From assembly GCA_025602905.1 (NCBI GenBank), contig JAHLKI010000005.1:1116001-1180000 (forward strand): 64,000 bases of DNA, in the 5' to 3' direction. Positions 2,369 through 25,360 of the stretch are shown piece by piece (the first letter of the stretch is position 1; the number at the start of each line of letters is the position of its first letter). The notes under the pieces were generated by a model. It had not been told where the DNA came from. It made no database searches and saw nothing but the letters and a program-made list of their open reading frames with translations. The position numbers and the translations under genes were made by a program. Source of the stretch: Phlyctochytrium arcticum (Eukaryota > Chytridiomycota > Chytridiomycetes > Chytridiales > Chytridiaceae).

Positions 2369-3697
2369 ATGTCTTCCTTTCCATCAACTACGGTGCCTCA
2401 ACAATTCGCGCGCTTTGAGAACAAGCTGGTCGCCTCGCGCCCCATTCCCTCTGGCCAGTTCGCCAGTCTGGGTGACATCCAAGTATGGGCTTTCGAGCTG
2501 ATCCGCGAGGTGAGGAAAATCCCCAAGAGCGCCATGTCGACATTGAACATCTTCACCGCCTCCAAGAGAAAGCTGGATTGGACAATTCTGGCGAATGACA
2601 AGGCATTTGAGGACGCGCTGAAGGAGGAGGGCGTAATTTTTTATTTCTCCTTCAAAAAAACCGTCGACGAAAAGGTTTCGCAGGAGCTGTTAACCGGCCT
2701 GCCGCGCAAGGCCTCCCTCTATCGATCTTTTGTCAACGCTCTGCGCCAAAAAGACCCAAGCATTCCAGAGTGGCCCGAAGATTGCGACGATAGCAAGGGG
2801 CGCGGGCTATTCAAATCCACCTTAACGTCCGTGTTGGCTAAGAGAGCCACCATCATATACGATGAGATTCAAGCGCAGCCTCAGTTTACACGAGCGCTGA
2901 TGCGTGTGATTGCCGACGCGCGAACAGATCCCACAGACCGCATGCGCATTTGCAGTTTCGCGCTCGTTGGCACACCGCCCTCGGTGCTGTCTCCCGATGC
3001 CATGATCTTCGCCACAGACGAGTTCAACAAGATCGATGAGCGGATCACCATAAGCCCTTTCGGCATCAAAAGCTTTATCCGCGCCATTGAACAAGCCGTA
3101 GGATACCTCCCTGCTTTTGAGCTCTTGATCCTGTGGACTGTGACAGGAGGGATCGCTCGGCATCTCCAAAGCCTTCTCGGTGCCCTCGCTTCGTCTTACG
3201 CCATCAAAGAAAACAAAGCGCGCACATTCGGGTCTCCTCAATATTTCGCAATCAGGAAATGGCTGCAACAGCGTGCCCGCACAATGGAGACCGAGCTCAA
3301 GAGCGCCGAGTGGCAGTTTTTGCGCAACATGACGAACGGTCAGAGCGAGGGAGCAGACGTTGTGAACTCTCCCCTTCTCGATGACTTCCTTGCCATGGGT
3401 GTGTTTGCGCCGCTCTACAGCGATCTGTCCGAGTATACAATCGCTTCGTACACCGTCAACAACTCCTACATTCGAACGATTGCTCGATCATTGTCCCTGA
3501 TGAAAAGGACGCCGAAGCAGCTGGTGATGGATGTCTGCGGTTTCGGATTGGAAGATTTTATGGAAAAACTTTTTGCTGAGTGTCGAGAAGACGCACAAAG
3601 TTTGAGGGCAGCAAATGAGGATGACGAAGATGACGAAGACGACGACGAAGACGACAACGGACAGAAAGACTGTGATAGTGCACTTAAAATCCCATAG
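2369..3697 (+). CDS. ATPase-like protein, 3' end formed by element A palindrome
   Basis: The frame is open from further upstream, but the first residues typical of a folded protein follow ATG 2369, giving 442 residues. A stretch reading TIIYDEIQ resembles a Walker B strand (hhhhDE). It is followed by FALVGTPPS (sensor-like) and ILWTVTGGIARHLQ, which resembles the lid helix of STAND/archaeal-type AAA ATPases. I see no Walker A loop, so this is either a degenerate or non-catalytic member or the C-terminal part of a larger protein. The acidic tail (DDEDDEDDDEDDN) is followed by about nine codons and a TAG that lie inside the 3670-3731 palindrome, so the natural C-terminus is probably lost. Similar ATPase modules occur in Crinkler-type proteins, which is a possible but unproven identity. 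Confidence 0.45.
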   Translation: MSSFPSTTVPQQFARFENKLVASRPIPSGQFASLGDIQVWAFELIREVRKIPKSAMSTLNIFTASKRKLDWTILANDKAFEDALKEEGVIFYFSFKKTVDEKVSQELLTGLPRKASLYRSFVNALRQKDPSIPEWPEDCDDSKGRGLFKSTLTSVLAKRATIIYDEIQAQPQFTRALMRVIADARTDPTDRMRICSFALVGTPPSVLSPDAMIFATDEFNKIDERITISPFGIKSFIRAIEQAVGYLPAFELLILWTVTGGIARHLQSLLGALASSYAIKENKARTFGSPQYFAIRKWLQQRARTMETELKSAEWQFLRNMTNGQSEGADVVNSPLLDDFLAMGVFAPLYSDLSEYTIASYTVNNSYIRTIARSLSLMKRTPKQLVMDVCGFGLEDFMEKLFAECREDAQSLRAANEDDEDDEDDDEDDNGQKDCDSALKIP

Positions 3698-3731
3698 TAT
3701 ATACTATGGGATTTTAAGTGCACTATCACAG
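3670..3731. repeat. 62-bp perfect palindrome, left tip of element A
   Basis: Two 31-nt arms meet between 3700 and 3701 with no mismatch and no loop. The outer 13 nt (CTGTGATAGTGCA) and inner 13 nt (AATCCCATAGTAT) of each arm are shared with the palindrome at 12742-12807. The central 5 nt of the arm (CTTAA) differ from the other tip. The right arm is the outermost part of the long TIR; the left arm overlaps the end of the 2369-3697 reading frame. The structure resembles a resolved hairpin telomere or replication junction. Confidence 0.85.
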
Positions 3732-4450
3732 GGGGAGATTCCAACTATACCCAACTATACCCAACTATGCCCCAACTATGCGGCAACTATGTGCCACATT
3801 ACACCGGACTTTACACCGGGCTTTACACCGTGTAATATACGGGACTTCCAGAAAATTTACAGATTTCACACTAGAAATTTCACAAAAATCACACTCGAAA
3901 ATTTCACACTAGAAAATTCACAGATTTCTTCTGTCCTTACGTCAATTTATTACAACGATTTATTACAAGCCTTTACTCCAATCTTGTCCTTTTTGGCAGT
4001 GGTTCTTCGGCTTCCTCCAATTCCTCTACTGAAACATTTCTCATCCATACATCTGACGCCTTCATATGGGCGTCTCGTATATCCATTGGTAAAGACCGCA
4101 CATCCACTCGGTTCATTTTTCGAATGTTGAAGAATAATGTCTTCATTTCATTCCCATCCTTTATTGACACCTTGGTTATTTCGAACTTCTTCATCTCTTC
4201 CTTGATAAAATCCAGAGCCGCTGTATGCTTCTTCACGACTCTATCCGCTGCTTTGAATTCCTCCGATATGTCCAAATTGATAAAGTCCAGTACTCGTTGT
4301 TCCAATCGCTCCATTCTTCTCCTGCGATGGTTGGTATTGTCGAATGACTTCTCCGTTATGGAGCGGCCTCTTTACGGGACTTCCAACCCTTTATAACATT
4401 CTCTGTTATCGATATCATTCTGAATTCATTTCTGGATAAGACATATCGAT
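3701..4450. repeat. Left terminal inverted repeat of element A
   Basis: This region matches, inverted and with indels, the stretch 12100-12774. Shared landmarks in order from the tip are the palindrome arm, GGAGATTCCAACTAT, repeated CAACTAT units, ACACCGGACTTTACACCGGG, ACGGGACTTCCAGAAA, the small gene at 3973-4314 (only a remnant on the right side), TTCTTCTCCTGCGATG, ATGGAGCGGCC, and the CTTTATAACATTCTCTG/ATCGATATC block. Several short TIR units repeat within the arm. Confidence 0.75.
3973..4314 (-). CDS. Small conserved TIR-borne protein (copy 1)
   Basis: This is a 113-residue protein starting at ATG 4314. It aligns over nearly its full length with the product of 18132-18473: both have a start followed by a heptad-like helix, EFKxAxxxxKxHT, a basic stretch, RVD, RD and W[MV][RK]NV near the end. 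It lies inside the left TIR of element A and is read towards the tip. A frameshifted remnant occupies the mirror position in the right TIR (12242-12330). Two charged helices suggest a nucleic-acid or protein-binding role such as terminus recognition. That role is inference; no known family is recognised. Confidence 0.65.
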   Translation of the reverse strand: MERLEQRVLDFINLDISEEFKAADRVVKKHTAALDFIKEEMKKFEITKVSIKDGNEMKTLFFNIRKMNRVDVRSLPMDIRDAHMKASDVWMRNVSVEELEEAEEPLPKRTRLE

Positions 4451-4477
4451 ATCAAGATACTGCTTAATTGGTGACAC

Positions 4478-4870
4478 TTTTTTAGGGCAGTTTTTAGGGC
4501 AGTTTTTAGGGCAGTTTTTTTTACTCCATGTCTCGAGTGAGAGACATTTTTATTATATATTTCCCTCCACTTTACATGTAGTAGGGCAGTTAGGGCAGTT
4601 TTTTTGAGGTAAAGTCCCTGGGGATATAGTTTTTAGACTAGTGAGAAGTAGTTCACACGTTCTGTGAACTTCTGCTCACTCATAAAAAATTCTATAAGAT
4701 TTATAAACATACAAAAAAACTGCCCTAACTGCCCTGTTTTGTTTTACTCCATAGAAAGAAACACTACACAACTTTATTAATAATTTTTTTTTTCTACATG
4801 TATCGAGTCAGGGCAGTTTTTTAAAACACCTGCCCTAAAACTGCCCTGACCTGCCCTGACTCCATCCATC
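4478..4870. repeat. Clustered GGGCAGTTTTT / CTGCCCTAA repeats
   Basis: The unit GGGCAGTTTTT occurs in tandem on one strand at about 4483-4520, again near 4583-4605, and as the reverse complement at about 4725-4735 and 4812-4862. The two orientations face each other across an AT-rich core of about 150 bp. The cluster sits between the TIR and the 3' end of the D5 helicase gene, so a replication-origin or transcript-end role is possible. The function is inference. Confidence 0.6.
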
Positions 4871-4876
4871 CCCGAT

Positions 4877-7351
4877 TCACTCATTCTTCCATTCTATCCC
4901 TACAAAGTATCGAGCGCCATTCGTCTTCTTTTCGGGAACTACCGCTCTCAGTTCTTTGTAAAATGTGTTTCGCTCACAAAGATTTGTGGATCCAACATTA
5001 TCGGCCAGATACTTATCATAGATTGCGGTTCTTTCAATTTTGTCCTCGGGGTTGTTTGTCAATTGGTAACTCATTTTGAACCATTTCGCAACTGTTAAAG
5101 AATTCACCAGATTCTTCTTCGTGTACTCATTGACCTCCTCTGGAACTTTTATCGAGAAATCCAAACTTCCATCTTTCTTTACAAACTTTGATTTAAAGAA
5201 TCTCATTAGTATGAGAATAAATGTGTCTCGATATTCTGGAGAGGAGAATAGTTTTTTAAGGTTTGGATTAACTTGACGAACAATTTGTTCATCTTCATCG
5301 TCGTCTAATTCAACGGCCATATCCTCTTCTTCATCATTACATTCTGCATATGTAACGGTGTAAGGAATCATTTTCGCCGAAAGAGCAATAGCAGTATCGA
5401 TACGGTCGAATTTTGGATCTTCGTTTGTTTGCATATGGAGAGCGCCAGTCATAGGGAACGTAATAGGTTTGCCGTGAAGTGTCCGAACCGGATAAGGGTC
5501 ATTTCCTCGAATGATTTTAATTTCATCAGAAGCAAAAGATTGACCAACTTGAGGTTCAGAAGTAGCGAGGTATCTCTTACCAAAACAATTAAACATTTGC
5601 GCATTTGGGGCATCACGTTGACCTTTGCTGCGAGTAGTAATATTTTCAGGTTTGATAAAGTAGAAATAAGTGCCAAAAGTAGATGTAATTAGCGTGGTTT
5701 CAGCCCCTTTACCATTGCGGCCACCTCCTTTTTGTACGTAAAAGGACTCTTCGACAACCTTTCCATGTAAACATCGTACAAGTTGAGCGATACGATATTC
5801 ACGTATTTTATCGCATGGAAAGATGCTTACAAAGAATGACGAGATTGCCTCACTAATCTCCGTAACTTCTCCCCCGCTAGGGAAAGGATACCCGCAAGTG
5901 TGCAAGATGTAATCCTTTGCTTCAAACGGACGAAACTCTCCTTTGACAAGGTCGTAAACGCCATCGGTGAATGCGAACAGATGAGGATTTGAAAGAAAGA
6001 GTTCGATACAATTGTCGTTTTTAACAGAGAGTCTATCGACATTTTTAGCCACATTTCCAGAGAAATCATTCATTTCGATTGTACGTTGAAATTGTTTAAA
6101 CACATCTTTACGGTCGTTGACATTTTGCATATCGTCCTCTGCTTCCTCGATAAGAGATTTAAAGGAGGACACAAGAGTTTCGGCAACTTGAATATTTAAG
6201 TCACTTGCTCCAATAGTGTCATACTCGCGCCAGATATTGTCTTTCCCGAGGATATAGAGAAAACCGCTCGTATGTTTCATGATACTATCGGCACTTTGTT
6301 CTTCAATAAACCATTTTGCGGCGTTGAGATGGGTTGGAGCATAAAGTCGCTTGAAATCGAAATATTTCCTTTTGCCAGATGGTAAATCCCGCAACGCTTC
6401 AAAATCAAGGTCATCTTTTTGCTTTTTCTTGGGTGGCTCAGCATCATCCTCCTCATCATCTTCTTCCTCCAAAGGTTCATACTTCAAACGGAATTTCTCC
6501 AAAAACGCATCAGATACAACAAGTGGTTTTTCCGCCAGTTTAATATGAATACCACATTCGTCAAAGACGAATTGTGAACATTCATCAAGTAACTCTTGAG
6601 TCATATCATGACCCTCTCTTTTCCTAATCATTCCACCATCAAAGATTAGAGCATCAACCGACCACCCCCTATCGGTGAAGAATCGATCCATTAAAAGTGT
6701 CACTTTGTTTTCGAGGGTTTGGGTAACTTGTGCGATAAAACTACCTTCGCGATTGCCCTTAATAGTAGCATCCCGGGATGTTCTGACTTTTTCCCAAATG
6801 TCGGGATACTCGTTTTTTAGAATGGGGCAAAGTGTGGTGTAAATAACTGAGTGTATTTCAGAAAAGAAAGGGTCACTGATTTTACGCCCAGCGAATAACA
6901 TCATGGAAACGACCTCTTGTTTGTCAATTTTCTTTTCTGTTAAGATAGTAGAGCGATTTTCGACATAGTGAGTTAGAGCATCACAAGTGATAGAATGTTG
7001 TTTAAAGAGATGAGCAATTAAAGTAAATATAGAATTTACTTGGTCTATATCATGATATCGTCCTGCTGCTAGATACTGTCTGAAATGATTATTTCTTGCC
7101 TCGAGATTCTGAAGAGACAGTCCTCTAGCCCATAATCGGCCAATTTGCTCTAGGCTCCCTTTTTCGGAATAAGCATACTCGGTGCGATAAAGATTTTTTC
7201 CAACTTTGCGATGCTTAAGAGCACGCAAACGGGTCTTCAGTTTGTGTAAAACGAATGGACTCTGAAGACAATATTTGATATGAATGTCATTGATATACTC
7301 GAATTTTTCGAGTGCGGTATCGCTTGATAATTTTGGACAAAAGTCAGACAT
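4877..7351 (-). CDS. D5-like primase-helicase (SF3), 824 residues
   Basis: A single uninterrupted frame runs from ATG 7351. The C-terminal half is a superfamily 3 helicase: Walker A QKGGGRNGKGAETT (about residues 545-560), a B-type motif around FGKRYLATSEP, and motif C/sensor ALHMQTNEDPKFDRID. That order is characteristic of poxvirus D5, virophage and Polinton-like-virus replication helicases. The N-terminal half contains DALIFDGGMIRK, seen in many virus D5-like proteins near a polymerase/primase-like fold, and an acidic linker (EEEDDEEDDAEPP). It would unwind DNA, and possibly prime, during element replication. The gene ends with TGA and uses TGG for Trp (EWKNE), so the code is standard. No intron or lesion is visible, in contrast to segment C. 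The gene is compact and AT-rich, unlike fungal genes. Confidence 0.85.
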   Translation of the reverse strand: MSDFCPKLSSDTALEKFEYINDIHIKYCLQSPFVLHKLKTRLRALKHRKVGKNLYRTEYAYSEKGSLEQIGRLWARGLSLQNLEARNNHFRQYLAAGRYHDIDQVNSIFTLIAHLFKQHSITCDALTHYVENRSTILTEKKIDKQEVVSMMLFAGRKISDPFFSEIHSVIYTTLCPILKNEYPDIWEKVRTSRDATIKGNREGSFIAQVTQTLENKVTLLMDRFFTDRGWSVDALIFDGGMIRKREGHDMTQELLDECSQFVFDECGIHIKLAEKPLVVSDAFLEKFRLKYEPLEEEDDEEDDAEPPKKKQKDDLDFEALRDLPSGKRKYFDFKRLYAPTHLNAAKWFIEEQSADSIMKHTSGFLYILGKDNIWREYDTIGASDLNIQVAETLVSSFKSLIEEAEDDMQNVNDRKDVFKQFQRTIEMNDFSGNVAKNVDRLSVKNDNCIELFLSNPHLFAFTDGVYDLVKGEFRPFEAKDYILHTCGYPFPSGGEVTEISEAISSFFVSIFPCDKIREYRIAQLVRCLHGKVVEESFYVQKGGGRNGKGAETTLITSTFGTYFYFIKPENITTRSKGQRDAPNAQMFNCFGKRYLATSEPQVGQSFASDEIKIIRGNDPYPVRTLHGKPITFPMTGALHMQTNEDPKFDRIDTAIALSAKMIPYTVTYAECNDEEEDMAVELDDDEDEQIVRQVNPNLKKLFSSPEYRDTFILILMRFFKSKFVKKDGSLDFSIKVPEEVNEYTKKNLVNSLTVAKWFKMSYQLTNNPEDKIERTAIYDKYLADNVGSTNLCERNTFYKELRAVVPEKKTNGARYFVGIEWKNE

Positions 7352-7420
7352 AATTGTGTTATTGAATGTTTAGTAACTTTCCTTCTTTAAACAAGAGTTT
7401 TATTTCTCTAAATAACAATT

Positions 7421-7575
7421 AAACGCAACATCGACATTCAAAACGGTATTGGTCATAATCCATCACATACATCGAAATTCGAGAAATTCCGATGTAAACG
7501 CAACATCGACATTCAAAACGGTATTGGTCATAATCAATCACATACATCGAAATTCGAGAAATTCCGATGTAGACG
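7421..7575. repeat. 75-bp tandem duplication upstream of the D5 gene
   Basis: The unit beginning AAACGCAACATCGACATTC occurs at 7421 and 7496, nearly identical over 75 bp, with a short third start at 7571. Each unit contains ATACATCGAAATTCG followed by GAAATTCCGATGT, a degenerate inverted pair. It lies in the intergenic space between the divergent D5 gene and HTH gene, so it is a candidate promoter or origin with iterated binding sites. Confidence 0.75.
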
Positions 7576-7662
7576 ATGACTCTTTCAAACGCAACAAATG
7601 AAATATTGATTCATATTTAAAAAGATAGTAAAATAGTATAGCATTATTGTAATATTCTCGCA

Positions 7663-7980
7663 ATGACTGGGTCAAAAAGCATTTATACAGCAGTTGTAAC
7701 CTTTCTGGGAGAAGAACGAACGGTCGAAGCACGAAGCATTCGACAATTGGCTAGGAAACTCGGTGTGTCCTATCCAACAATTCATAAAATGCTCAACAAT
7801 CGCGAAACTACTCTGGATGAAGGCTGTAATCACAGAAAGACCAAAGAATACAGAAAAGTGATATCTTTAAGGGCTATGAGGAAAAGGGGGGGTCAAATCG
7901 ATATTCTTGATAATCTCGATCGTGTAGGAACATTAGGAACATTAAGATTATCGATATTACCCCCCACCTCCCATAAATGA
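7663..7980 (+). CDS. Small helix-turn-helix protein (copy 1)
   Basis: The predicted product of 105 residues starts at ATG 7663. Residues about 24-47 (ARSIRQLARKLGVSYPTIHKML) read as a classic helix-turn-helix with a preceding beta strand (YTAVVTFLGEERTV). The product of 30661-30909 in segment C has the same plan (EASSLRQLGKLLKLDRATVTNIL). It would bind DNA and could regulate the divergently transcribed D5 gene, or act as an excision/replication accessory factor. The last 30 residues are encoded by the AT-rich inverted repeat at 7886-7974, so the true C-terminus may be read from repeat sequence. Confidence 0.6.
   Translation: MTGSKSIYTAVVTFLGEERTVEARSIRQLARKLGVSYPTIHKMLNNRETTLDEGCNHRKTKEYRKVISLRAMRKRGGQIDILDNLDRVGTLGTLRLSILPPTSHK
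7886..7974. repeat. AT-rich inverted repeat, copy 1
   Basis: The stretch opens with GGGGGGTCAAATCGATA and closes with TATCGATATTACCCCCC, with GATAATC and GGAACATTA units inside. The same structure recurs at 9015-9112. Both lie at the 3' end of a plus-strand gene, suggesting a conserved transcript-end or element-specific stem-loop. Confidence 0.6.
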
Positions 7981-8120
7981 CATGGGACATTTTGTAAAAA
8001 CAAAGTCCAAACTCTGACATAATGTCGGACATTTTTAAAGTTTGTGTTATTTGCTAGACTTATCAGGATACAAAAGAACAACAAGACGACCAGAATCATT
8101 GCTTTAACCCCCCATTCAGA

Positions 8121-8990
8121 ATGTACCGCACGGCTCTACAAACTCCAAATCTCATCGAGAATGTGTACAAGAACTTGAAGAAAATAGACGATTCTGTTTG
8201 GGCAATTGGTGAAAGGGCTGAACCAATGAGTGAGATTATCGAAAGATGGGCTCCAATTCATGAAACCGGACAGTACATATTCGAACATTTGGATTCTATT
8301 CGCGAAATTCAAAAGTCTTTTGACCAACTTATGAAGATTCCCTTGGAGTTTGACGAAGAAGAAGAGGATGAGGCAAGACATCTCTACAATGAAACGGAAC
8401 TCCTAGTATTTGATATTGTGGCAAACATTGACTCGGTTTCACCGGACATGTTTAAAAAACCGCCGACACCTACACCAGCACCAACACCAGCACCACTCCC
8501 TTCAACCCAGCCAGTACTTCAACAAATGCCTGTGCCCGACCCCATACAAGAGATTGAGAATCCACACCCTTCGCCAAGTAAACATGAACTGAAGAAAAGG
8601 GAACGTTTTCAAAAGGAAAGAGAGAGTCTGGTAGACACCATGCGAAATGTTGTCAAATCTTTTAAAATGGATGGACATTACGAGAGCCAGGAGAATTTCA
8701 AACGCTTTTTCTTTCTCAATCTGTCAACACATACAAAATCACGAGGCACCAATAAGAAGATCACCAAAGAATCGGTTTGGAGACTATACGAAACAGTGAT
8801 GGAAACGGACGGATTTGTACAAGTTCATCAGTATTTCTGCAAAGAATGTGACAATTTCTGGAAAAGAGGATGCTGCGATAAGTACAAAAAGTCAACTCGT
8901 GGAAATCGACTGTGGATTGTCAAGAATGCATGTTTTCCAGACAAGTTTCATGAGCATTGTCGCGAAGGCGCAAAATGGGGAAAATGTTGA
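8121..8990 (+). CDS. Cys-rich C-terminal protein of unknown function
   Basis: The 289-residue product starts at ATG 8121. The N-terminal 110 residues are helical and acidic (EFDEEEEDEARH). Next comes a Pro/Thr/Ala linker (TPTPAPTPAPLP), a basic helix, and a C-terminal module with Cys and His in FCKECDNFW, GCCDKY and EHCREGAKWGKC that could bind zinc. The layout (oligomerisation, linker, small zinc module) fits a DNA-binding or virion-core protein, but I recognise no family. It follows the HTH gene on the same strand and ends 26 nt before the second AT-rich inverted repeat. Confidence 0.5.
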   Translation: MYRTALQTPNLIENVYKNLKKIDDSVWAIGERAEPMSEIIERWAPIHETGQYIFEHLDSIREIQKSFDQLMKIPLEFDEEEEDEARHLYNETELLVFDIVANIDSVSPDMFKKPPTPTPAPTPAPLPSTQPVLQQMPVPDPIQEIENPHPSPSKHELKKRERFQKERESLVDTMRNVVKSFKMDGHYESQENFKRFFFLNLSTHTKSRGTNKKITKESVWRLYETVMETDGFVQVHQYFCKECDNFWKRGCCDKYKKSTRGNRLWIVKNACFPDKFHEHCREGAKWGKC

Positions 8991-9014
8991 AAGGTAGTTT
9001 CAAGGCTTGAGAAC

Positions 9015-9112
9015 GGGGGGTCAAATCGATAATCTTGATAATCTTGATAATCTTGATAATCTCGATAATCTAGGATTATCAGGAACATTAGGATTATCGA
9101 GATAACCCCCTA
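9015..9112. repeat. AT-rich inverted repeat, copy 2
   Basis: It begins GGGGGGTCAAATCGATA, contains five GATAATCTTG/CGATAATC units in tandem, and closes with GGATTATCGAGATAACCCCCT. It is a length variant of the repeat at 7886-7974 and sits just after the stop codon of the 8121-8990 gene. Confidence 0.65.
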
Positions 9113-9154
9113 TCCCCCATAAATCGTGCTTTTGCTTCTGCCGAAATATTTTCA

Positions 9155-9540
9155 TCACCCCGCTCCATTTCGTTTGGAGAAACCCTTAACTGTCTGAAGA
9201 TTATTAACCCATTTTTTATCATTATTTGACCCCATGATTTGGTCTAACTGACGTTTAATATCGCCTCCTCTTCTCTCAACGTACGCATTACTTTGCGGTC
9301 TGGCTACTTGTGAATAAAAATGTTTGATTCCACTATCACCGAGTTCCCTTTTGAAGATTTGTTGAAAATGCGCGCCTTGATCCGTTTGCATTATTGAGAT
9401 TTTCCTTCCTTCTCGTCGACCCTTGCCAAGGCACTTCTATAATGCTTCGGTCACTTCTTCTTCACTTTCGCCTCTAAGTGGAGCAGCATATCCTTTTAGC
9501 GACATGGATGAAATGTAGAATGTTGTGTGGATTGTATAAA
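9155..9540 (-). pseudogene. Fragment of a retroviral-type (RVE) integrase core
   Basis: Reading leftward from about 9540, one frame gives GYAAPLRGESEEEVTEAL, an in-frame TAG near 9438, then GRKISIMQTDQGAHFQQ and SNAYVERRGGD. The second Asp (TDQGAHF) and the catalytic Glu (NAYVER) of a DDE integrase core are recognisable; the first Asp region is missing. It resembles the Polinton/Maverick integrase seen intact in layout at 35296-36567. The chromodomain piece lies upstream on the same strand (9587-9881) rather than downstream, so the gene has been scrambled. Confidence 0.65.
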
Positions 9541-9586
9541 TCAAATGTATTGTGATCTTTCCTATGTAAATGATCAATTATTCGGT

Positions 9587-9881
9587 TCAAACTGCTTCCC
9601 TATTGTCTCCAAAATCTCCAAGCGGAACCCACGAATTGTCTTGTGGGTTGTTATACCCGACCCACTTTACAAGGAATTCGACCCCTTCCTCTCCATCTAC
9701 CATGCGAGTTCGCTTGTCAATGATGTAGTCTACCTCGTAATATCCTTCCTGAGTTGGTGGAGGATTGACGGGCTGAGCGGGTAATGGAGTCGTTTGTGTT
9801 GGACAAGCCGGCAAAGTGTATGCTGGAAAAAGTCCCTGGAGGGCGTTTCCCTTGAGAATCTATATGAATGCACTGTACTGG
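9587..9881 (-). pseudogene. Chromodomain fragment of a Polinton-type integrase
   Basis: Reading leftward, the frame gives KGNALQGLFPAY, a Pro-rich linker and then a chromodomain: GYYEVDYIIDKR, EFLVKWVGYNN, NSWVPLGDF. The same order (PGLYPAY, linker, GYFEVEALLDK, EYKVLWRGYELEDSTWEP) is found at the C-terminus of the integrase at 35296-36567. The aromatic cage residues Y and W are partly kept. The integrase core expected before it is absent, so this is a detached end. Confidence 0.6.
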
Positions 9882-10069
9882 TTCTAGTGCTGCCTCTAGT
9901 ACTGCCCTCTGTACAGAACCCATGTTTTCACGCCGCCCACGCCCTACTTTTTGATATCTGTGCCACTGACATAAGCCACCTGCGGGGCGCCTGCAGTTGT
10001 TGACTGACCGACCATTCCAGTAGCCGAAATACGGCGAAATACCGCAAGCAAGATTCATAGGAAACCACC

Positions 10070-11525
10070 ATGACGACAATTTGGTTTCAACTAACTACTG
10101 CCAACGGCAAGAAAGCACTTGGAACCGCCACCTCCATTTCTGTCTCAGAAACCTCGACTGTGGACAATCTGCGAAAGCAAGTGAAAAAGGAGTTGGCAGA
10201 CGAACCCTCTCTTCAAGGAGTACCGCCCCACCGCCTCCTCGTCTACGCCAGCGCAGAAGCACTAGAGAAAGACAAAGACGAACCCGAACCCAAGCACTGG
10301 TTGAAAGCGGGGAAAACGCTGGAATCGGTACTGGAAGAAGCACAAGACAACTCAGATGATAACCCGCTGTTGATTGTGGTGCCGGAGCGGAGTCAGCCGA
10401 CTACAAGTGGTAAGGGAGGGATTCGGTTGGATAGTTCATTGCGCAATTGACTTATCTGATCCTACTGGTGACTTCAGAAATTGAAAGCGAAGAGCGCTTA
10501 GTTAATAAAGTCCTGGAAAAGTTGAAACGTCAAGATGGTAATGTTTGTTATTTGTTACACTGTCTAGTTACGACTTACCGTCAAGGAAAACATTGCAGAA
10601 AAGACAAGGCATGGTTCGAGTATCAACAGCGGCGACCTTAATGACGTTTTGAAGTTCACTGGCGTTGCCCTTCTAAAAGAAGTTAGCACGAGTTGTCCAC
10701 GCAGGCGTTTTCGCTCTTTGCTGATCCTTCTCGTAGGATGCTGTTGCCCTGAAGAAAGTACCTTCTGTAGCCGGGACTATGCCCTTCACCTGGGGTTCCA
10801 ACGTTGAGCATATGCAAACGCCTCAGACGATCGAATGGTTGAAGAATGCCCTTCAATTTGAAATGGATTCTCAAGTGACTATTGAAGCGTATCACACAAC
10901 GAAGAAGGCGCATTTCGGCTTTCCACTGAGTGCAAAAGTTGATCTTAGAGTGGCGGTCGCAAACAATTCAGTATGCTTTATTGAATTGAAGAAATCGGTC
11001 GACCCTCAGGCTGAACGACAAGCGGTTGCTGAAGCCTGTCTGTTTTTACGAGATACAACGCCGGAGATATCTGCAACTGGAGTCATTGTCCTAACAGATT
11101 TGCATGATTTCTGGCAAGTGTTATATTTTTCAGCAGCAGAATCGGGTGCCTCCACAAAGAAGTTGCATGTGGTCAACGTTGATCGGGAGAAAGGACTCGG
11201 CGCCATCAAATTGGCCGTTTTGGAATGCACGAAAGAATTGTATGAGTTCGGCGTTCATGTGGAGCGTATGGATAGGATCAATCGCGAGATCGCTGAATTT
11301 CCCAACAGTCCACTCAAGAAACGCATCAAGTTGGTTCATTTGTCGCCGGAGAGTTCACAACTTATTCGAATGCAAGACTTGGCCGAGAGCGAAGAAGAAC
11401 GGTCTCTTTTGCGAAAGCGGCTGTGGCTGTCATTGTTTGCCGATAATTGTGAGCCTGAGGAACAACGTACATATCGCGATACGGAGCAGGGGATGCGGAA
11501 TGAATGGTTACCCATGTATGTGTAA
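10070..11525 (+). CDS. Crinkler (CRN)-type protein with PD-(D/E)XK-like domain, four exons
   Basis: Best model: exons 10070-10409, 10478-10537, 10599-10681 and 10737-11525, with GT-AG introns of 68, 61 and 55 nt; every junction keeps the frame, giving 423 residues. The N-terminal 110 residues form the ubiquitin-like header of Crinkler proteins: MTTIWFQLTTANGKK, DNLRKQVKKELAD, HRLLVYASAEALEKD, LKAGKTLESVL and PLLIVVPE. Exons 2-3 encode a helical linker ending SGDLNDVLKFTGVALLKE. Exon 4 has KVDLRVAVANNSVCFIELKK, the Asp and Glu-x-Lys of a restriction-endonuclease-like fold. CRN proteins are known as nuclear effector or conflict toxins in fungi and oomycetes; no secretion signal is visible here. 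The introns show eukaryotic expression even though the gene lies inside element A. No lesion is visible. Confidence 0.75.
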
Positions 11526-12099
11526 GTTAGCGGTTGGGAGGGTGTTGGCGACAAAGTGGAGATTGCGATTGTTTGTCTCGCTTTGCAAAAGAGTGTTCAA
11601 GGGCGTGGCATATGAAAAATATCATACGACCATCCGAGAGTATAATTCATGTTGTGCATCGTTTGTCATGTTGCGGTACTCGATAAGTTTTGGATGCATC
11701 GGAAACGAGAAAATATCGGAAAGTTTCGCCATAGGATGCATCGGAAACGAGAAAACATCGGAAAAAAACATCGGTGGAACATAAATGTCGGTAAATAGCA
11801 GATTTGAGTAAGAAAAAGGGTGTTTTTGACACAAAAAGGCGAGAAAGAGAGATTTAACATATGAAAAGTGCCAGACTGCGATGTAAAAGCCGCGTAAAGC
11901 AATTGTTTCAAAAGTGGGTAACGGAACGTTTACACGGGGGAACCCTTTAAGAGTACGACGTTGTAAACGTTCCGTTACCCACTTTTTGTCGTTCCAGTAA
12001 AATGGAGGGAGTCAGATATGTTTCAGGGTAGTTTGCTCGAAGAATGGAGAGAAAGCAGAATGGGGAGATTAAAAAATGACACACAGAGATGTCATGATC
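11526..12099. other. Non-coding stretch with short repeats
   Basis: No gene is supported. A direct repeat of about 30 bp (GGATGCATCGGAAACGAGAAA) occurs at about 11693 and 11736. A strong inverted repeat lies at 11910-11986 and is listed separately. Confidence 0.5.
11910..11986. repeat. 25-bp perfect inverted repeat with 27-nt loop
   Basis: The arm AAAAGTGGGTAACGGAACGT continues to TTACA (11910-11934) and is exactly complementary to 11962-11986. The spacer is 27 nt and GC-rich. It lies between the CRN gene and the right TIR of element A. It could be a transcript terminator, a replication signal, or the ends of a tiny foldback insertion. Confidence 0.7.
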
Positions 12100-12774
12100 G
12101 AGAAAAGAATTCGGAATGATATCGATATGACATCGATATGATATCGATAGCAGAGAATGTTATAAAGGTTTGAAAGTCCCGTAAAGGGGCCGCTCCACAC
12201 CGGAGAAATCATTCGAAAATATCAATCATCGCAGGAGAAGAATGGAAGCGACATTTATTGAGAAGAATTGATAGACTGGGAACATTCCGAGGGATTCAGG
12301 GAAGCATCAACACGGTACAAATATTTGTACATGTAGCGGGGAGATGTGAAAATACTTCGGCGACCCGATGATGGATGTAGCGAGAATGTTGGGATAAAAG
12401 ATTGGGATAAAAGATTGGGATAAATCGTTAGGATATGGAGTAAAATCTATGGATAAAATGCTGTTTTTGTGTGAATACTTGGTCAAAATTCGACATAAGA
12501 AATTGAAAGTCCCGTAATGAGCGTATAACACGGTGTAATGAGCGTATTACACCGGTGAAGACTTGTAAATGGTGCGAAGAATATTCTTCGCCGACTTGTA
12601 AGGTGTCAAAATTTGACAGAAGAAATTTGTGAATTTCTGGAAGTCCCGTACACAGCGTATTACACGGTGTAAAGCCCGGTGTAAAGTCCGGTGTAATGTG
12701 GCCCATAGTTGGCCCATAGTTGGCCCATAGTTGGAATCTCCCCTGTGATAGTGCATAACCAAATCCCATAGTAT
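12100..12774. repeat. Right terminal inverted repeat of element A
   Basis: This is an inverted, diverged copy of 3701-4450, with the CAGAGAATGTTATAAAGG and GGCCGCTCC blocks at the inner side. Four to five ACACCGGTG/ACACGGTGT units and three CCCATAGTTGG units lie near the tip. It is not identical to the left TIR, so the two have drifted or been rearranged. Confidence 0.75.
12242..12330 (+). pseudogene. Remnant of the small TIR gene in the right TIR
   Basis: An ATG at 12242 in the mirror position to the start of the 3973-4314 gene is followed, in a shifted frame, by LIDWEHSEGFREAST. This matches FINLDISEEFKAAD of copy 1 and LIDLDQSPEFKSAS of the copy at 18132. The rest is lost. Confidence 0.5.
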
Positions 12775-12807
12775 ATACTATGGGATTTGGTTATGCACTA
12801 TCACAGG
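12742..12807. repeat. 66-bp perfect palindrome, right tip of element A
   Basis: Two 33-nt arms meet between 12774 and 12775 without mismatch. Compared with the left tip, the middle of the arm reads TAACCA instead of CTTAA, yet both arms of each palindrome agree perfectly with each other. The outer arm encodes the last residues (CDSA) and TAA stop of the truncated Helitron frame. Confidence 0.85.
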
Positions 12808-18131: not shown

Positions 18132-18473
18132 ATGGATTACCTAGAGAAGAAAATGGAACGTCTCATTGACCTAGACCAGTCACCAGAATTCAAGTCAGCG
18201 TCAAAATTGATCAAGGAGCACACAGATCTACTAGCAACAATCAAGAAGACAATGAAGTCAAAGAATATAACAACATGGCAGATCAAGAGAGGGACACTTG
18301 TGAAGAAGCTGAAGTTCAAGATTCAATTAAGTTGTCGCGTCGACACATCAGCAATGCCAGAAGAAGTGCGGGATCTATACATGACTGAAAGTGAAATGTG
18401 GGTGAAGAATGTTGACATTATAGATATGGGGGGTGATGTTATAGCTGGAGATACTAGTACAGAGTCGTCATAA
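18132..18473 (+). CDS. Small conserved TIR-borne protein (copy 2)
   Basis: The product is 113 residues from ATG 18132, homologous to the 3973-4314 product (same length; EFKSASKLIKEHT against EFKAADRVVKKHT, SCRVDTSAMPEEVRD against MNRVDVRSLPMDIRD, MWVKNV against VWMRNV). As in element A it is read towards an element tip, with the hairpin starting 214 bp downstream. The shared position, direction and size across two diverged termini point to a function tied to the ends. No known family is recognised. Confidence 0.65.
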   Translation: MDYLEKKMERLIDLDQSPEFKSASKLIKEHTDLLATIKKTMKSKNITTWQIKRGTLVKKLKFKIQLSCRVDTSAMPEEVRDLYMTESEMWVKNVDIIDMGGDVIAGDTSTESS

Positions 18474-18686: not shown

Positions 18687-18752
18687 GTGTCACAGTGCAT
18701 ACCCGCGAGATAGCCTCTTACAAGGCTATCTCGCGGGTATGCACTGTGACAC
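18687..18752. repeat. Hairpin tip of element B: 30-bp perfect stem, 6-nt loop
   Basis: The arm 18687-18716 is exactly complementary to 18723-18752, with loop CTTACA. The outer part TATGCACTGTGACAC differs at only three positions from TATGCACTATCACAG of the right tip of element A, so the termini are related. Left of it is the small TIR gene; right of it, four bases on, the fibre reading frame ends. It therefore marks a junction between two virus-like segments. Confidence 0.8.
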
Positions 18753-18756
18753 GATG

Positions 18757-19443
18757 CTATCTTACCACTGCTATTGATTCGTATGGTACTGTTGTCAACT
18801 CGTTATATGTGAAGTTTGAAGTACGATTCAATCCGCTCAAACCTGAATCATACGGGATTTCTCCTAAACCAGTGGAACGGAATGCCAACTTGTTTCCAGT
18901 CTGCTGAAAATTATTAAGGTCGATGTCTAGTTTTACTAATGAGCCGTCAAGATATTCTGATATATCTTTATAAACACTGATGGCACCCGCGCCTGTTAGT
19001 GAATTTGAAACATCTTGCTTTTTTGCTTTCAACGTTCCATCATCTATTTCAAGCGAATCTTCATCGATTCTCAAATGAACTTCATTTTCAATCTCGTCTA
19101 ATGGTTCATGGAACACTAGTTTCTGAGTGATTCTAGCGGTTAGGCGGCCAGTATCTACGTCAAGCGTGTCATCATCGATTTTCAATGATAATCTATGCAA
19201 ATTTAACGCATTGAAATAAAAGGGGTCGGCTATCTTCAGCGAGAGACCTTTTTTGAACATCGATCCGTCTAAATCCCATATACCATCATCATCAAAGAAG
19301 CATGAAGCGTATCTTAATTCGATCTTATTATCGTCATTGAAAAAAAGAGGAGAATCGAGTTCTATTGGATCTGGTTGTATGGAAGATAGTTCATTTTGGT
19401 CATTTAAGAATAATGTCGAATCATCATACAAAAGACTTAAAAA
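18757..19443 (-). pseudogene. Fibre-like protein, C-terminal part (shaft repeats), split by retrotransposon
   Basis: The frame continues without a start from the retrotransposon boundary (19443) to TAG 18757. Several repeats of about 17-20 residues match the triple beta-spiral pattern of adenovirus fibre shafts, with alternating hydrophobics and a D/G turn: LSLKIDDDTLDVDTGRL, LRIDEDSLEIDDGTLK, LSLKIADPFYFNALNL. After them comes a more globular end (YKDISEYLDGSLVKLDIDL). Such shafts form elongated trimeric attachment fibres. The N-terminal part lies beyond the gypsy insertion at 25927-26174. The end abuts the element B hairpin, so the natural head domain may be missing. Confidence 0.6.
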
Positions 19444-20427: not shown

Positions 20428-21376
20428 ATGTCCACCGCTGAAGAACAAGTCGCTGAGAGCGTCAACGAGTTGAGTTTGGACGAGCTCAGACAAATGGTAT
20501 TCCACGCCCGTGCGCAGCAACTCCACGCTCCAGCTCCTGCTCCACCACCGCCACCGCCTCCACCACCCGTTTCTGTTCCCGCTGCCCGAAGTGATCAGTT
20601 TGATGAAAGTCCTGCAAAGTAAACTCAAAACGTATCAAGGCACGCGCAATGTGAAAGATCTCCGCACGTGCATGAAACGTCTAGACAAATATTTTCTTGC
20701 GGCCCCACAGTTTACCGCGGCCAACCAGTTACAGGTGGCATCCATGTACTTAGAGTCGTTTGCGGAAGATTGGTGGAACGCCCATACGCAAAACCATCCT
20801 GCCGGCTCTCCCAGCCGCATTGTCACCTGGGAACAACTGAAAGATGGTCTGCGCCACGCCTTCACACCCGTAAATGCCATACGTGCAGCGCGCAACCGCC
20901 TGTCCCAAGTGCGCCAAATCACCTCGGTTCAGGACTATGTAAACAAGTTTAACAACCTCTGCGTGGAAGTAGACAATCTCTCCGACACCAAAAGGTTGTA
21001 TACCTTCATCCAAGGACTGAAGCCGCGGATCCAGGAACAACTAGCCCTGAACCCTGCCAGCGCAACGGACATTGAAACCGTTACTGCCGTGGCTGATTCC
21101 ATTGCCCAAATTCACCAAGTATTCCGGAATAAAGCCGCGTCAAACAACACCCCGCAGTACAACCCCACCAGTGCTCCGCGACAAGGCCCCCAAGGTGTCA
21201 TACCCATGGAAATCGACAATGTATCCTCGCAACCCCGGCTGCAACGTCTCACCAAAACCGAGAAGATGGAATTACGCGCTACCGGAGCGTGCTTCCGGTG
21301 CCGTCAACCGGGACACGTGTCCGCCAACTGCCCCCTCCGCCGCGTCCAACAGGGAAATGGCGGAACAACTCGCTAG
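20428..21376 (+). pseudogene. Gypsy Gag with CCHC zinc knuckle, frameshifted
   Basis: ATG 20428 opens MSTAEEQVAESVNELSLDEL with a Pro-rich stretch and stops at 20622. The adjacent frame continues with KLKTYQGTRNVKDLRT, the retrotransposon gag core (YLESFAEDWWNAH, WEQLKDGLRHAFTP), and the zinc knuckle CFRCRQPGHVSANC. A frameshift near 20600-20630 separates the two parts. Gag packages element RNA. Confidence 0.8.
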
Positions 21377-21857
21377 AGGCCGTGGGCCCTACTGAGGATT
21401 ACCGACACCCCCACACCCAACGAAATCTTAACCTGGCATATAATACTGTAAATAGACAACCCGACACAATACTGGACAACAACAACCTTACCTACATCAA
21501 CGGACGCATCATGGGGCTAACGAGCACCATGCACCTCGAAAAACAAGAAAAACAAGAAAAAGAAAGCCACAACAACTACGACAACCCAGAAAACAACGAA
21601 AACCAAGCAAACCACGACACCTCCGAGACCCCCGAACCCCACGCACCCCACGAAACCCAGGCACCCCGCGCAACCCCGGCAACCCAAGTAACTCAAAGCA
21701 CCCCAGACACCACGGAAACCAAGACTCACGACCCCGTAGGCAGAGTAGACGTAGTTCTAGCAAAGCCCAGCCCTGTAACATTGAACCAGATTAGCATAGA
21801 CACTGCACCAGTACTCCCAGATTTTGAGTCCGCACCTTACTGTATCGGTTAGAGACG
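21377..21857 (+). other. Gag-pol spacer, low-complexity coding remnant
   Basis: A frame overlapping the gag end runs to 21852 with a Glu/Lys/Thr/Pro-rich stretch and ends PDFESAPYCIG just before the protease frame. It is probably the N-terminal leader of Pol, out of frame with the protease. Confidence 0.5.
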
Positions 21858-24800
21858 GTGGAAGGACCACTGCTGCCCCAGAGTAAATTATTGGTTGTAA
21901 AAGGAACTGTAAATGGACTCCCTGTAAATATTTTATTAGACAATGGCGCCGATCAAGTCTATATCAGTTCAAACTTTGTTAGGCGCGCAAATCTTACCAC
22001 CAAACCACTGCCCGGCCTGGAAATCTCGATGGCAGATGCCTCGAAACAGATAGGCGCGGCCTATGTACCCTCCTTGAAATATTCTGTGGGAACCTTCACC
22101 GAACAAGCTGATTTTATAGTCGCCAATCTCAAGTACGATCTGATCTGGGCATCCCATGGTTCATGTGGCGGAACCCCAAATTCGACTATCTCCAGGGAAC
22201 AATCAGCTTCGTATCAGAGCAACACCCCCGAGTCCGCTGGATGACAACACCAGCTCCCGATGCCCAACCGACCACATCTTCGCTGAACGTCATATCTGCC
22301 AAGTGCGCCGTACGCATTGCGCTAAAGAAGAAAGCGACCGCATACCTGGTCCAATGCATCGATTCGACCGCACGCAAAGCTGGTAAATTGTCCTGCCAAG
22401 TACAACGGCTTTTAGATCAGTTTACAGACGTCTTCGTTGAAGACTTACCACCAGGATTGCCCCCAGAAAGACCGGTGGATCACCGTGTCGAACTCACGGA
22501 CCCAACCCAAATGCCATGGAAACCCACCTATCATATGTCGGCGCTAGAATTGAAGGAGTTCCGACAACAGCTTGCCGCGTTGTTGGAAAGCAGATTCGAC
22601 CGTCCAAGAGCCCTTTTGGTGCCCCAATTTTGTTTATTAAAAAGAAGGAAGGATCCCTACGCATGTGTGTCGATTACTGGGCACTCAACAAGATAACTGT
22701 GAAAAACCGCTACCCACTACCCCGGATCGCCGAGTTAATGGACAGGCAGATAGGCGCCAAGGTGTTTACGAAACTGGACCTGAAATCGGGATATCATCAG
22801 ATTAGAGTGCACCCAGACGATATTCCCAAAACTGCTTTTCGTACCCGATACGGCCATTTCGAATTCTTGGTCATGACATTTGGCATGACTAACTCCCCGG
22901 CAACGTTCATGACATTGATGAATAACGTCCTCCGCCCGTTTCTGGATGACTTCGTCATTGTGTACCTGGACGATATCTTGGTATTTTCGAAAACTGAAGA
23001 GGAACACGTCGACCACCTTTGCCAAGTCCTGGAAGCCCTACGAGAGAACAAGCTGTATGCCAACAGCAGCAAGTGTGAATTCGCCACGAACAGCGTCGAC
23101 TTCCTGGGCCATGTAGTGTCCGGCAAGGGAGTTAGCTTGGACCCAAAGAAAGTTGCCGCGGTCCAAGATTGGCCACCTCTGAAAAATGTCGCGGAAGTAC
23201 GCCAGTTTATGGGCTTAGTTAACTATTTCCACACGTTTTTGAAGGACCTTGCCGCACCGTTGCCGCACTGTTGACCGACTTGTTGAAGGGGGAGAACGAT
23301 TTGAAGTGGGACGATGCCCAGATATCGGCCTATGAAACATTGAAACAGCTAGTGACACATGCGCCAGTACTGCGCCAGTACAACCCAGACCTCAAAAGGG
23401 TAGTTTACCCGGATGCATCAGTCTTTGCGGTCGGAGCTTGGCTCGGTCAGAAGGACGAGCATGGCTTGCGTCCTGTTGCGTTCCATTCCAGAAAACTGAC
23501 ACCAGCCAAAACAAGATATGATACTCGCGAACAGGAACTATTAGCTATCCACGATGCACTCCGAGTTTGGCGGCCATACTTAGAGGGAATTAAGTTTACG
23601 GTGGTGTCGGACCATGAAAGTTTGAAGTATCTGCAGAATCAGCGCTTCTTGACCAGACGACAGGCCCGTTGGGTAATGAACTTTCAGTCGTATGATTTTG
23701 ACATTGGCTATGGGGCCGGCAAATTGAATACCGTTGCCGATGTACTGTCCAGAAAGCCAGATGTGGCCCCTCGATGCGTGAAATGCCGTAATGTCCTAGA
23801 ATCAGAAGTCAATGTCATAACTTTGGAACTGTTTGATACTGCCGGCTTTAAGAATGCTCTTTCGGAAGCTGCAAAACATGACGACTACCTGGAGGAATTG
23901 ATGTCCTACTTGAAAGATGATACACTGCCGGTCCCCAAACATCTTGCCCACCTCATGTTGCATTTGTCCTTGCAGGATGACATTGTTTACCACCAAGACC
24001 GCATACACATCCCAGACAGCCCGGAGATGAAAATACAGCTCCTGGAGAAACATCATGATATTCATTATTATGGCCACTTTGGCGTAGGACGCACATTTGC
24101 AGCAATTGCCCAGTCCTATTACTGGCCCACTTTGTACAAAAATGTAACCAAGTTTGTTCTGAGTTTCGACTCGTGCCAGCAAAATAAACCCAGTCAACAC
24201 AACCCAACAGGCCTTCTGCAACCAATGCCCTTGCCTAAACGCCGCTGGGGAAGTATTGCCATAGACTTTATTCCAGACCTCCCAGTAACCCCGAACGGCT
24301 TTAACGCGATCTGCGTGGTGGTTGACCGACTTTCGAAACGAGCGCACTTCATTCCCACCACAACCACGGCTACTGCCAAAGATACCGCGGATCTATACCT
24401 GGCGCATATTTTTAAACATCATGGACTCCCCGATGAAATGGTTTGCGATTGCGACACAAGGTTCCGTTCCGTGTTCTGGTCCAGGTCGATGAAACTCCTC
24501 GGCTGTGATATCCAAATGGCAACTGCTCGTCACCAGAATACAAACGGATTAGCAGAACGGACCGTCCGCACAATCAAGACCTACTTACGAGCCTTTGTGG
24601 ACTATGACATGGACAATTGGGAAGGACTGTTACCGCTCGGCGAATTTGCTTATAACAACACGGCCTCCACCGCTACCACGTTCACTCCGTTTTACCTGGA
24701 AACTGGCCAGCAACCCCGTACACCTTTGTCACCGCCACCGGAACTTCTCAACGAAATGTTCCCTCCTTCGGCCGACTTCTTCACCCGACTTCTTCACCCG

Positions 24801-25360
24801 GTTACAAGATACGCTGAAGATCGGCCAGGAACACTTGATCCACGCCCAGGAGAACCAGGCCGCCTATGCCAATCGCAACCTACGGTCAGCTCCTGTTTTT
24901 AAGGTGGGGGAGAACGTGATGCTGAACCGTGCAGGCATCAAAGTCTCGGAGGAGGTGCAAGGCCCAACTCAGAAGCTACTGTCAGTATGGCTTGGGCCGT
25001 ACAAGGTGCTGAGTCACGATAGCCTCCACAATTACACGTTGGACTTGCCACCGACCATGAAGATACATCCAACGTTCCATGTACGTGTGCTGAAGGCATA
25101 TATATCAAGAGCCCACCACCGACTTCCCAACACAAACTGTACCAGAAGAACCTCCGGCCGAGATCATTGACGGCGAGGAATACCACGAGGTAGAAAAGAT
25201 CTTGGACAAACGAAGAAATCTGTACCTAGTCAACTGGCAAGGATGGCCATCGTCCGCGAACACGTGGGAACCCCTGGAAACTCTGCTGCCAAGCGCCGCG
25301 GACCCCTTAGCCGAGTTCAACACCAGACCCCCAAAGCAACACCGACATAAGAAGAAATAG
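21858..25360 (+). pseudogene. Gypsy Pol: PR, RT, RNase H, integrase, chromodomain, with frameshifts
   Basis: Protease: ILLDNGADQVYI near 21940. Reverse transcriptase (22516-23274): LDLKSGYHQIRVHP, FGMTNSPATFM and the YLDD box. RNase H starts about 23400 (YPDASVFAVGAWLG). Integrase: zinc region HYYGHFGVGRTF with SFDSCQQ, catalytic DFIPD, DCDTRF and NGLAERTV. The chromodomain is EYHEVEKILDKRRNLYLVNWQGW near 25180. Frameshifts lie near 22145, 22510-22600 and 23270. Another at about 24783 is caused by a 13-bp tandem duplication (ACTTCTTCACCCG). The frame changes once more before the chromodomain. The protein is not producible as one chain. Confidence 0.9.

Follow-up and report, generated by a model that had tools for sequence, protein, structure and literature searches.

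The 64,000-nucleotide (nt) stretch of the chytrid fungus Phlyctochytrium arcticum analysed here (contig JAHLKI010000005.1, positions 1,116,001 to 1,180,000; hereafter the window) carries a 9-kb element that is bounded at both ends by perfect palindromes. Coordinates without a prefix refer to the window, C-numbers to contigs of the same 31.5-Mb genome and L-numbers to extracted stretches. The left palindrome spans 62 bp (3670–3731, arms 31/31) and the right one 66 bp (12742–12807, arms 33/33); within them, the sequence bounded by TGT...ACA defines a 60-bp left tip with arms of 30 nt (3671–3730), assigned to a CTTAAA subfamily, and a 62-bp right tip with arms of 31 nt (12744–12805), assigned to a TAACCAA subfamily. 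The left and right arms have TGTGATAGTGCA and ATCCCATAGTAT in common, and between these they read CTTAAA on the left and TAACCAA on the right. Both the coordinates and the description given in a first-pass annotation, two perfect palindromes with unlike middles, were thereby reproduced. Across the window, three palindromes have arms of at least 14 nt and loops of at most 8 nt, namely the two element tips and one at 18687–18752, and the longest arm in 20 dinucleotide shuffles of the window was 12 nt. The third tip (18688–18751, 64 nt) has 29-nt arms around the centre CTTACA and combines another inner sequence with the same outer motif. Folded as single-stranded DNA, each of the three tips forms one hairpin (z −14 to −18; for the left tip, −30.5 kcal/mol and z −15.6).

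Between its tips, the window element encodes an 824-aa replication protein of the virophage type (4877–7351, minus strand), with a D5/SF3 helicase part (Pfam D5_N; PHROG DNA primase) and an N-terminal domain that we take for TVpol. A profile of this protein and six relatives matches C962R of African swine fever virus (ASFV) and poxvirus D5 in the PDB, and the best BFVD match of its structural model (mean pLDDT 66.8, pTM 0.48) by E-value (1.5e-29) is the DNA replication protein of Zamilon virophage, at a TM-score of only 0.32. The other open reading frames (ORFs) comprise a 113-aa ORF of no assigned function that adjoins the left tip (3973–4314, minus strand) and has a paralogue at 18132–18473, a 105-aa ORF with a helix-turn-helix-like stretch (7663–7980, plus strand), a 289-aa ORF of no assigned function that is multicopy in the genome (8121–8990, plus strand), an ORF with a Crinkler-like N-terminal domain (10070–10450, plus strand; Pfam PF20147, E 0.0011, 20.1 bits, below the cut-off of 24.6) and a 248-aa ORF without a Pfam match (10779–11525, plus strand), possibly a later exon of the Crinkler-like gene. 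The last two are carried as cargo between the tips (10070–11525). Capsid genes were not recognised in the window element, and Pfam gave no match to an A32/FtsK-type ATPase among the scanned ORFs of this copy.

The left subterminal region (3731–4700, plus strand), with its GGGGGAGATTCCAACTAT... repeats, is 98.0% and 97.3% identical to the element ends at C23:391467 and C32:11983, respectively, and the right one (11900–12743, minus strand) is 98.9% identical to the end at C7:1034084. Compared with each other, the two ends are alike only in patches (77 nt at 94%, 123 nt at 87%), and the host flanks, AAGAC and GGAGG, show no target duplication. The window element is best read as a shortened derivative that joins the ends of two subfamilies. 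It had been suggested from the unequal tips that one arm is copied from the other; the difference is real, but because the ends come from two subfamilies, without a target duplication, their inequality is not in itself evidence for copying. On sequence grounds, the clean case of unequal tips is instead C23:264889–289396, an element that lies between TTACC duplications, whose terminal inverted repeats (TIRs) are 92.5% alike over 146 nt and whose tips, each perfect in itself, are unlike at 8 of 50 arm positions.

A search of the genome for the 11-nt outer motif at both ends of any 18–79 nt, with no requirement for inner palindromy, returned 116 + 11 = 127 places, and a reversed-motif control returned 0. 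Tips were read at 122 of these, counting mismatches in the central 8 nt as part of the centre and not of the arm. In 118 of the 122 the arms have no mismatch outside these 8 nt, despite the presence of 48 different arm sequences, 20–50 nt long, so that the covariation of both arms across copies, which the first-pass annotation had named as support for arm copying, is indeed found. Of the remaining four tips, three have one arm mismatch each, and in C4:1158961 indels set the two arms apart. A non-palindromic centre is present in 73 tips, consisting of a single base (odd length) in 45 and of 2–8 nt in 28, including the indel-bearing C4:1158961. In a minimum spanning forest of arms at most 6 apart, some edges of which are of doubtful homology, 37 mirrored substitutions stand against four tips with one-sided differences, and mirrored indels are also present between close arms. 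When the central 24 nt were searched for with at most 3 mismatches, and without requiring the outer motif, 39 places were found, 38 of them exact and the remaining one with two mirrored changes; none had one or three mismatches.

The centres themselves occur in both orientations. We oriented 22 tips of the AACC...GGTTTAT group by the GGGG that opens the element side. On arms ending AACAACGC, the centre reads AAC three times (C7, C10, C23) and GTT three times (C52, C78, C91), forms that are exact reverse complements of each other and between which three changes are required. Arms with GAGCATGC carry AAT four times and ATT once, those with GAATTGTGC TTA once, TAA twice and ATA once, those with GATTATGC TAT, AAT and ATT once each, those with GAACAATGC TAA three times and those with GAGCAATGC ATT once. 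The tips L093 (C10) and L098 (C91) combine identical arms with opposite loops, differ at 1 of 150 adjacent bases and have unlike host flanks. Read from sequence, centres in both orientations on identical arms are flip/flop forms, as in hairpin telomeres. A flip/flop search of the CTTG family gave one match only, the pattern used being too strict.

Selection alone might keep the arms complementary if the single-stranded hairpin served as a binding or packaging signal, the variety then arising from compensatory mutations, and both the high stability of the three window hairpins and the outer motif common to the tips would be in line with this. Intermediates are nearly absent, however (the three one-mismatch tips and the one with unequal arms among 122, against 37 mirrored substitutions and the mirrored indels), and the inner sequences are wholly unlike between many tip families. 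As selection on pairing or on sequence-specific binding does not predict loop inversion either, we consider this explanation very improbable.

Exact 5-bp duplications were found in 8 of 14 pairings of tips (CTGAC, CATAG, TTGTG, AACCT, CAGAC, TTCCC, ACAGA and TTACC), and a 4/5 duplication (TGGTG/TTGTG) in one more; none is present in five, namely the window element, C6:103483–127749, C8 and the exploratory pairings L055/L014 and L026/L004. In the eight duplicated elements, the complete palindrome sits inside the duplication. Six of these eight have TIRs that are 99–100% alike (132–800 nt compared) and are therefore young insertions; in C7:648173–652802, the alignment of the TIRs extends over just 26 nt. 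We counted 57 half-arms of the TGTGATAG...ATCCCATAGTAT type: 54 make up 27 complete palindromes, and the other three are situated where contigs end. Integrated copies that begin at the palindrome centre, which the first-pass annotation had proposed to look for, are thus absent for the tip type searched, bar these three. Since it is the full palindrome that integrates, a hairpin would have to be opened at its base.

The contigs C5, C22 and C27 (L041, L047, L052) each break off within a tip palindrome, in one case 1 base past the centre, which is probably due to repeat collapse; hairpin-ended molecules would look alike. That three contigs end within a palindrome would also be expected from an assembly or library artefact in which reads turn back on themselves, but artefacts would continue into the flanks, whereas the arms stop at TGT/ACA and are followed by exact duplications in 8 of 14 pairings. 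With 127 places and 48 arm sequences among the 122 tips read, we find such an artefact hardly credible.

The young insertions also bear on an origin of the symmetry within the chromosome, by which cruciform or hairpin repair would convert one arm to the other and recombination would occasionally invert the loop, with no need for a hairpin-ended genome. Such repair could produce matched arms as well as inverted loops, and the tips of C23:264889–289396 are perfect despite the divergence of its TIRs. With TIRs 99–100% alike in six of the eight duplicated elements, however, the mirrored variety predates insertion, repair would have been incomplete in the three single-mismatch tips and the one with unequal arms, and arms of 20–25 nt are short for recombination. 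We thus regard repair in the chromosome as quite unlikely.

Some palindromes have no recognisable element on either side (L090 at C8:569203, L032/L046 and L102/L103). An exact 5-bp duplication, AGCTG, encloses the one at C8:569203, the sole case among 78 distinct tips with both flanks; with a chance expectation of about 0.08, its reading as a scar similar to a solo long terminal repeat is suggestive only.

The interior was read for two longer elements, other full-length copies being known by their tips and by matches to D5 and to a 334-aa protein only. The more fully read of the two, C4:900741–925880, encodes an rve integrase (50.9 bits, cut-off 32.6) with a chromodomain, a Pox_A32-type ATPase (39.5 bits, cut-off 22.8), an adenovirus-fibre-like ORF, an HNH-AP2 ORF and a 160-aa ORF with a weak Capsid_N match (E 0.014, 15.4 versus 24 bits), two neighbouring ORFs of which were unmatched. 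Longer relatives with such tips look like Polinton-like viruses (PLVs), and this element is one judged by its gene content. With P0027, the ATPase of Powellomyces chytrid fungus MELD virus 2, the ATPase found here has 57% identity. Within the same element (L073, 8637–9521), a response-regulator receiver domain adjoins an F-box ORF. In C13:607553–626669, where 8 ORFs were scanned, we found a D5-type helicase, a fibre-like ORF and retroelement-like ORFs. No family-B polymerase was detected in 19 of the 22 ORFs of at least 110 aa in C4:900741–925880 (19.6 kb of 25 kb), although an intron-split gene could escape such a scan. PLVs likewise combine an integrase (rve or tyrosine recombinase), an A32-like ATPase, a fibre-like ORF and a virophage- or D5-type replication protein with TIRs and short target duplications, the sign of their double jelly-roll major and minor capsid proteins being a weak capsid-like ORF in our case; what differs in the chytrid elements described here is that, outside the TIRs, they have perfect palindromes as tips, with centres in flip and flop forms.

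In IMG/VR, the ATPase has no relative, and only distant D5 proteins were found, at 7 loci, none of them with a palindrome arm of at least 16. The TGTGA form of the outer motif is absent from that database, and the TGTCA form occurs in two prophage-like contigs (L118, 3165–3211; L119, 5433–5479), where outer arms of ~13 nt enclose an unrelated, non-palindromic middle; we took these as chance or operator-like occurrences.

A genome search with the 334-aa protein of the longer elements gave 14 matches: 12 are strong and fall at 11 places, and two are distant. By a C-terminal motif recognised by eye, it presumably resembles a tyrosine recombinase; this identity found no support in Pfam, PHROGs or the PDB, and the structural model is poor (pLDDT 43). 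A pox-type resolvase had no match among the 19 scanned ORFs of C4:900741–925880.

We propose that the tips are the integrated form of the hairpin telomeres of chytrid PLVs, a reading to which we assign a probability of roughly 0.65. At their ends, the integrated elements have a complete inverted repeat with outer ends TGT...ACA, a common 11-nt motif and a centre of 1–8 nt. Copying round a hairpin predicts this combination of features: arms that match although their inner sequence is free to differ, centres that are unmatched, and loops that occur inverted. The replicating genome would be linear, with a single arm folded back on itself at each end and the centre forming the loop. The D5-type replication protein would copy round this loop, by which a mutation in an arm would either be fixed in both arms or be lost, and the loop would invert between replication rounds. 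For integration, the hairpin would be opened at its base to give a CA-3' end, the rve integrase would join this end to the target with a 5-bp stagger, and fill-in would copy the unfolded strand, leaving a full palindrome between 5-bp duplications. Integrases of the rve type act on CA-3' ends, and the TGT...ACA ends and 5-bp duplications fit this rule. Hairpins would also replace protein priming, as the one element scanned for a family-B polymerase gave none. That a PLV lineage with hairpin telomeres integrates through the opened hairpin, the provirus keeping the whole telomere as a palindrome whose arms are proof-read in each cycle, is in our estimate an even bet. The proposal of the first-pass annotation that the element was once hairpin-ended linear DNA therefore gains support from the covariation and the flip/flop centres, the closed ends being inferred and not seen.

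Matched arms, loops and flip/flop would likewise result from parvovirus-like rolling-hairpin replication, in which the palindromes are open, the 3' strand folds back and primes, and a nick at the base is followed by fill-in, without covalent closure. As the nick at the base alone suffices, it also fits the full palindrome seen at integration. Parvoviruses have terminal palindromes that form hairpin ends with flip/flop, in small single-stranded DNA genomes with a Rep/NS1 nickase, whereas the chytrid elements have the genes of double-stranded DNA viruses and an integrase. No Rep-type nickase was found among the Pfam-scanned ORFs (19 of 22 in the full-length element), and relatives of D5 serve closed-end genomes (poxviruses, ASFV), though many others too. 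Overall, rolling-hairpin replication seems to us unlikely.

Several observations weigh against hairpin telomeres. The closed ends are deduced from integrated sequence, and neither a telomere resolvase nor a hairpin nickase could be recognised, the tyrosine-recombinase-like 334-aa protein having no profile support. The same inward loop form is found at both ends in four oriented pairs (C6:97321, C10:1765, C7:648173 and C58:50572, where only orientation and distance define the last pair), as well as in a fifth, doubtful pair (C8:317129). Because independent flip/flop predicts about half, this sharing speaks against independent inversion; within one genome, one end may be copied from the other, a possibility suggested by the near-identical TIRs. 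Some flip/flop places are perhaps duplicates of one insertion, C7 and C23 having a common mirrored arrangement of two tips and C88 and C89 nearly the same flanks, and the loop pairs AAT/ATT and TTA/TAA differ by a single base, so that mutation could give them. To these come the four tips with imperfect arms, a class that is under-counted, since an intact outer motif was demanded on both sides and decayed tips were missed. One further tip, outside the 127 (L054, 157–270, on C22), has a partly repeated arm, as if by a copying slip or template switch.

We know of no palindromic tips in Polintons/Mavericks. These elements resemble ours in the rve integrase, the TIRs and the short duplications (passages in PMC12220804 and PMC12747079), while their duplications are typically of 6 bp according to these passages, compared to 5 bp here, and they encode a protein-primed PolB (PMC12747079), of which none was found among our scanned ORFs. 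A PLV is known in the chytrid Spizellomyces punctatus (text portions of PMC7805220), and excerpts of PMC12747079 state that most PLVs are without pPolB and encode helicases, the sole mention of hairpins there concerning the ends of giant viruses. Neither "hairpin" nor "palindrom" appears in the main text of seven papers on PLVs or virophages, PMC4642659, PMC7805220, PMC12220804, PMC8547959, PMC10120064, PMC12721341 and PMC9952930. In the portions of the literature on PLVs, Polintons and chytrid elements that were covered, we found no description of such tips, although an earlier mention is possible. In endogenous elements of phaeoviruses, a telomere resolvase, a palindromic telRL site and closed hairpin ends have been proposed (sections of PMC13236599). 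As here, an integrating DNA virus of eukaryotes has a palindromic site thought to become closed hairpins; there, however, the telRL site is internal and the ends of the provirus are att sites, whereas our palindromes are both integration ends and our candidate resolvase is unsupported. The hairpin telomeres of poxviruses (PMC8956199, in part) and the flip-flop termini described in passages of PMC11788076 resemble what we propose. As here, poxviruses and asfarviruses have a replication protein of the D5 family and inverted-repeat ends whose small loop is unpaired and exists as flip and flop; they differ in that our palindromes are seen in integrated DNA, together with an rve integrase.

How PLVs and virophages without a protein-primed polymerase complete their ends is, to our knowledge, unsettled. 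More than 100 integrated ends are preserved in a single genome, where mirrored changes and inverted loops keep a record of the end-replication process, and the question thus becomes testable in a chytrid fungus. If true, hairpin telomeres would give such viruses a way to replicate their ends without the protein-primed polymerase, with solo palindromes remaining as scars, and would link the small Polinton-like viruses with poxviruses and asfarviruses in the chemistry of their ends. The 11-nt signature can be used to find such ends elsewhere.

In the C6 pairing without a duplication (L105 and L106, at C6:103483 and 127688), the two flanks of the inner element match exactly in inverted orientation (150/150), and outer tips with a TTCCC duplication lie ~6.1 kb away on both sides. 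This is a virus-like element with extra inverted outer arms, an arrangement that apparently recurs on C15 (L107, C15:729592).

Beside the third tip of the window lie the paralogue of the 113-aa ORF (18132–18473, plus strand; 41% identity over 96 residues to ORF 3973–4314) and a fragment of an adenovirus-fibre-like gene (18757–19431, minus strand; Pfam Av_adeno_fibre, E 0.00012, 22.3 bits, cut-off 22.7). A second, decayed Polinton-like element therefore probably adjoins the first. The stretch at ~15.2–16.7 kb of the window is 96% identical to an element on C3 near its 334-aa gene. Further on, the decayed stretch 20510–25170 holds a retroelement with a Ty3-type gag ORF recognised by Pfam and ORFs that by eye are similar to reverse transcriptase/RNaseH and integrase.

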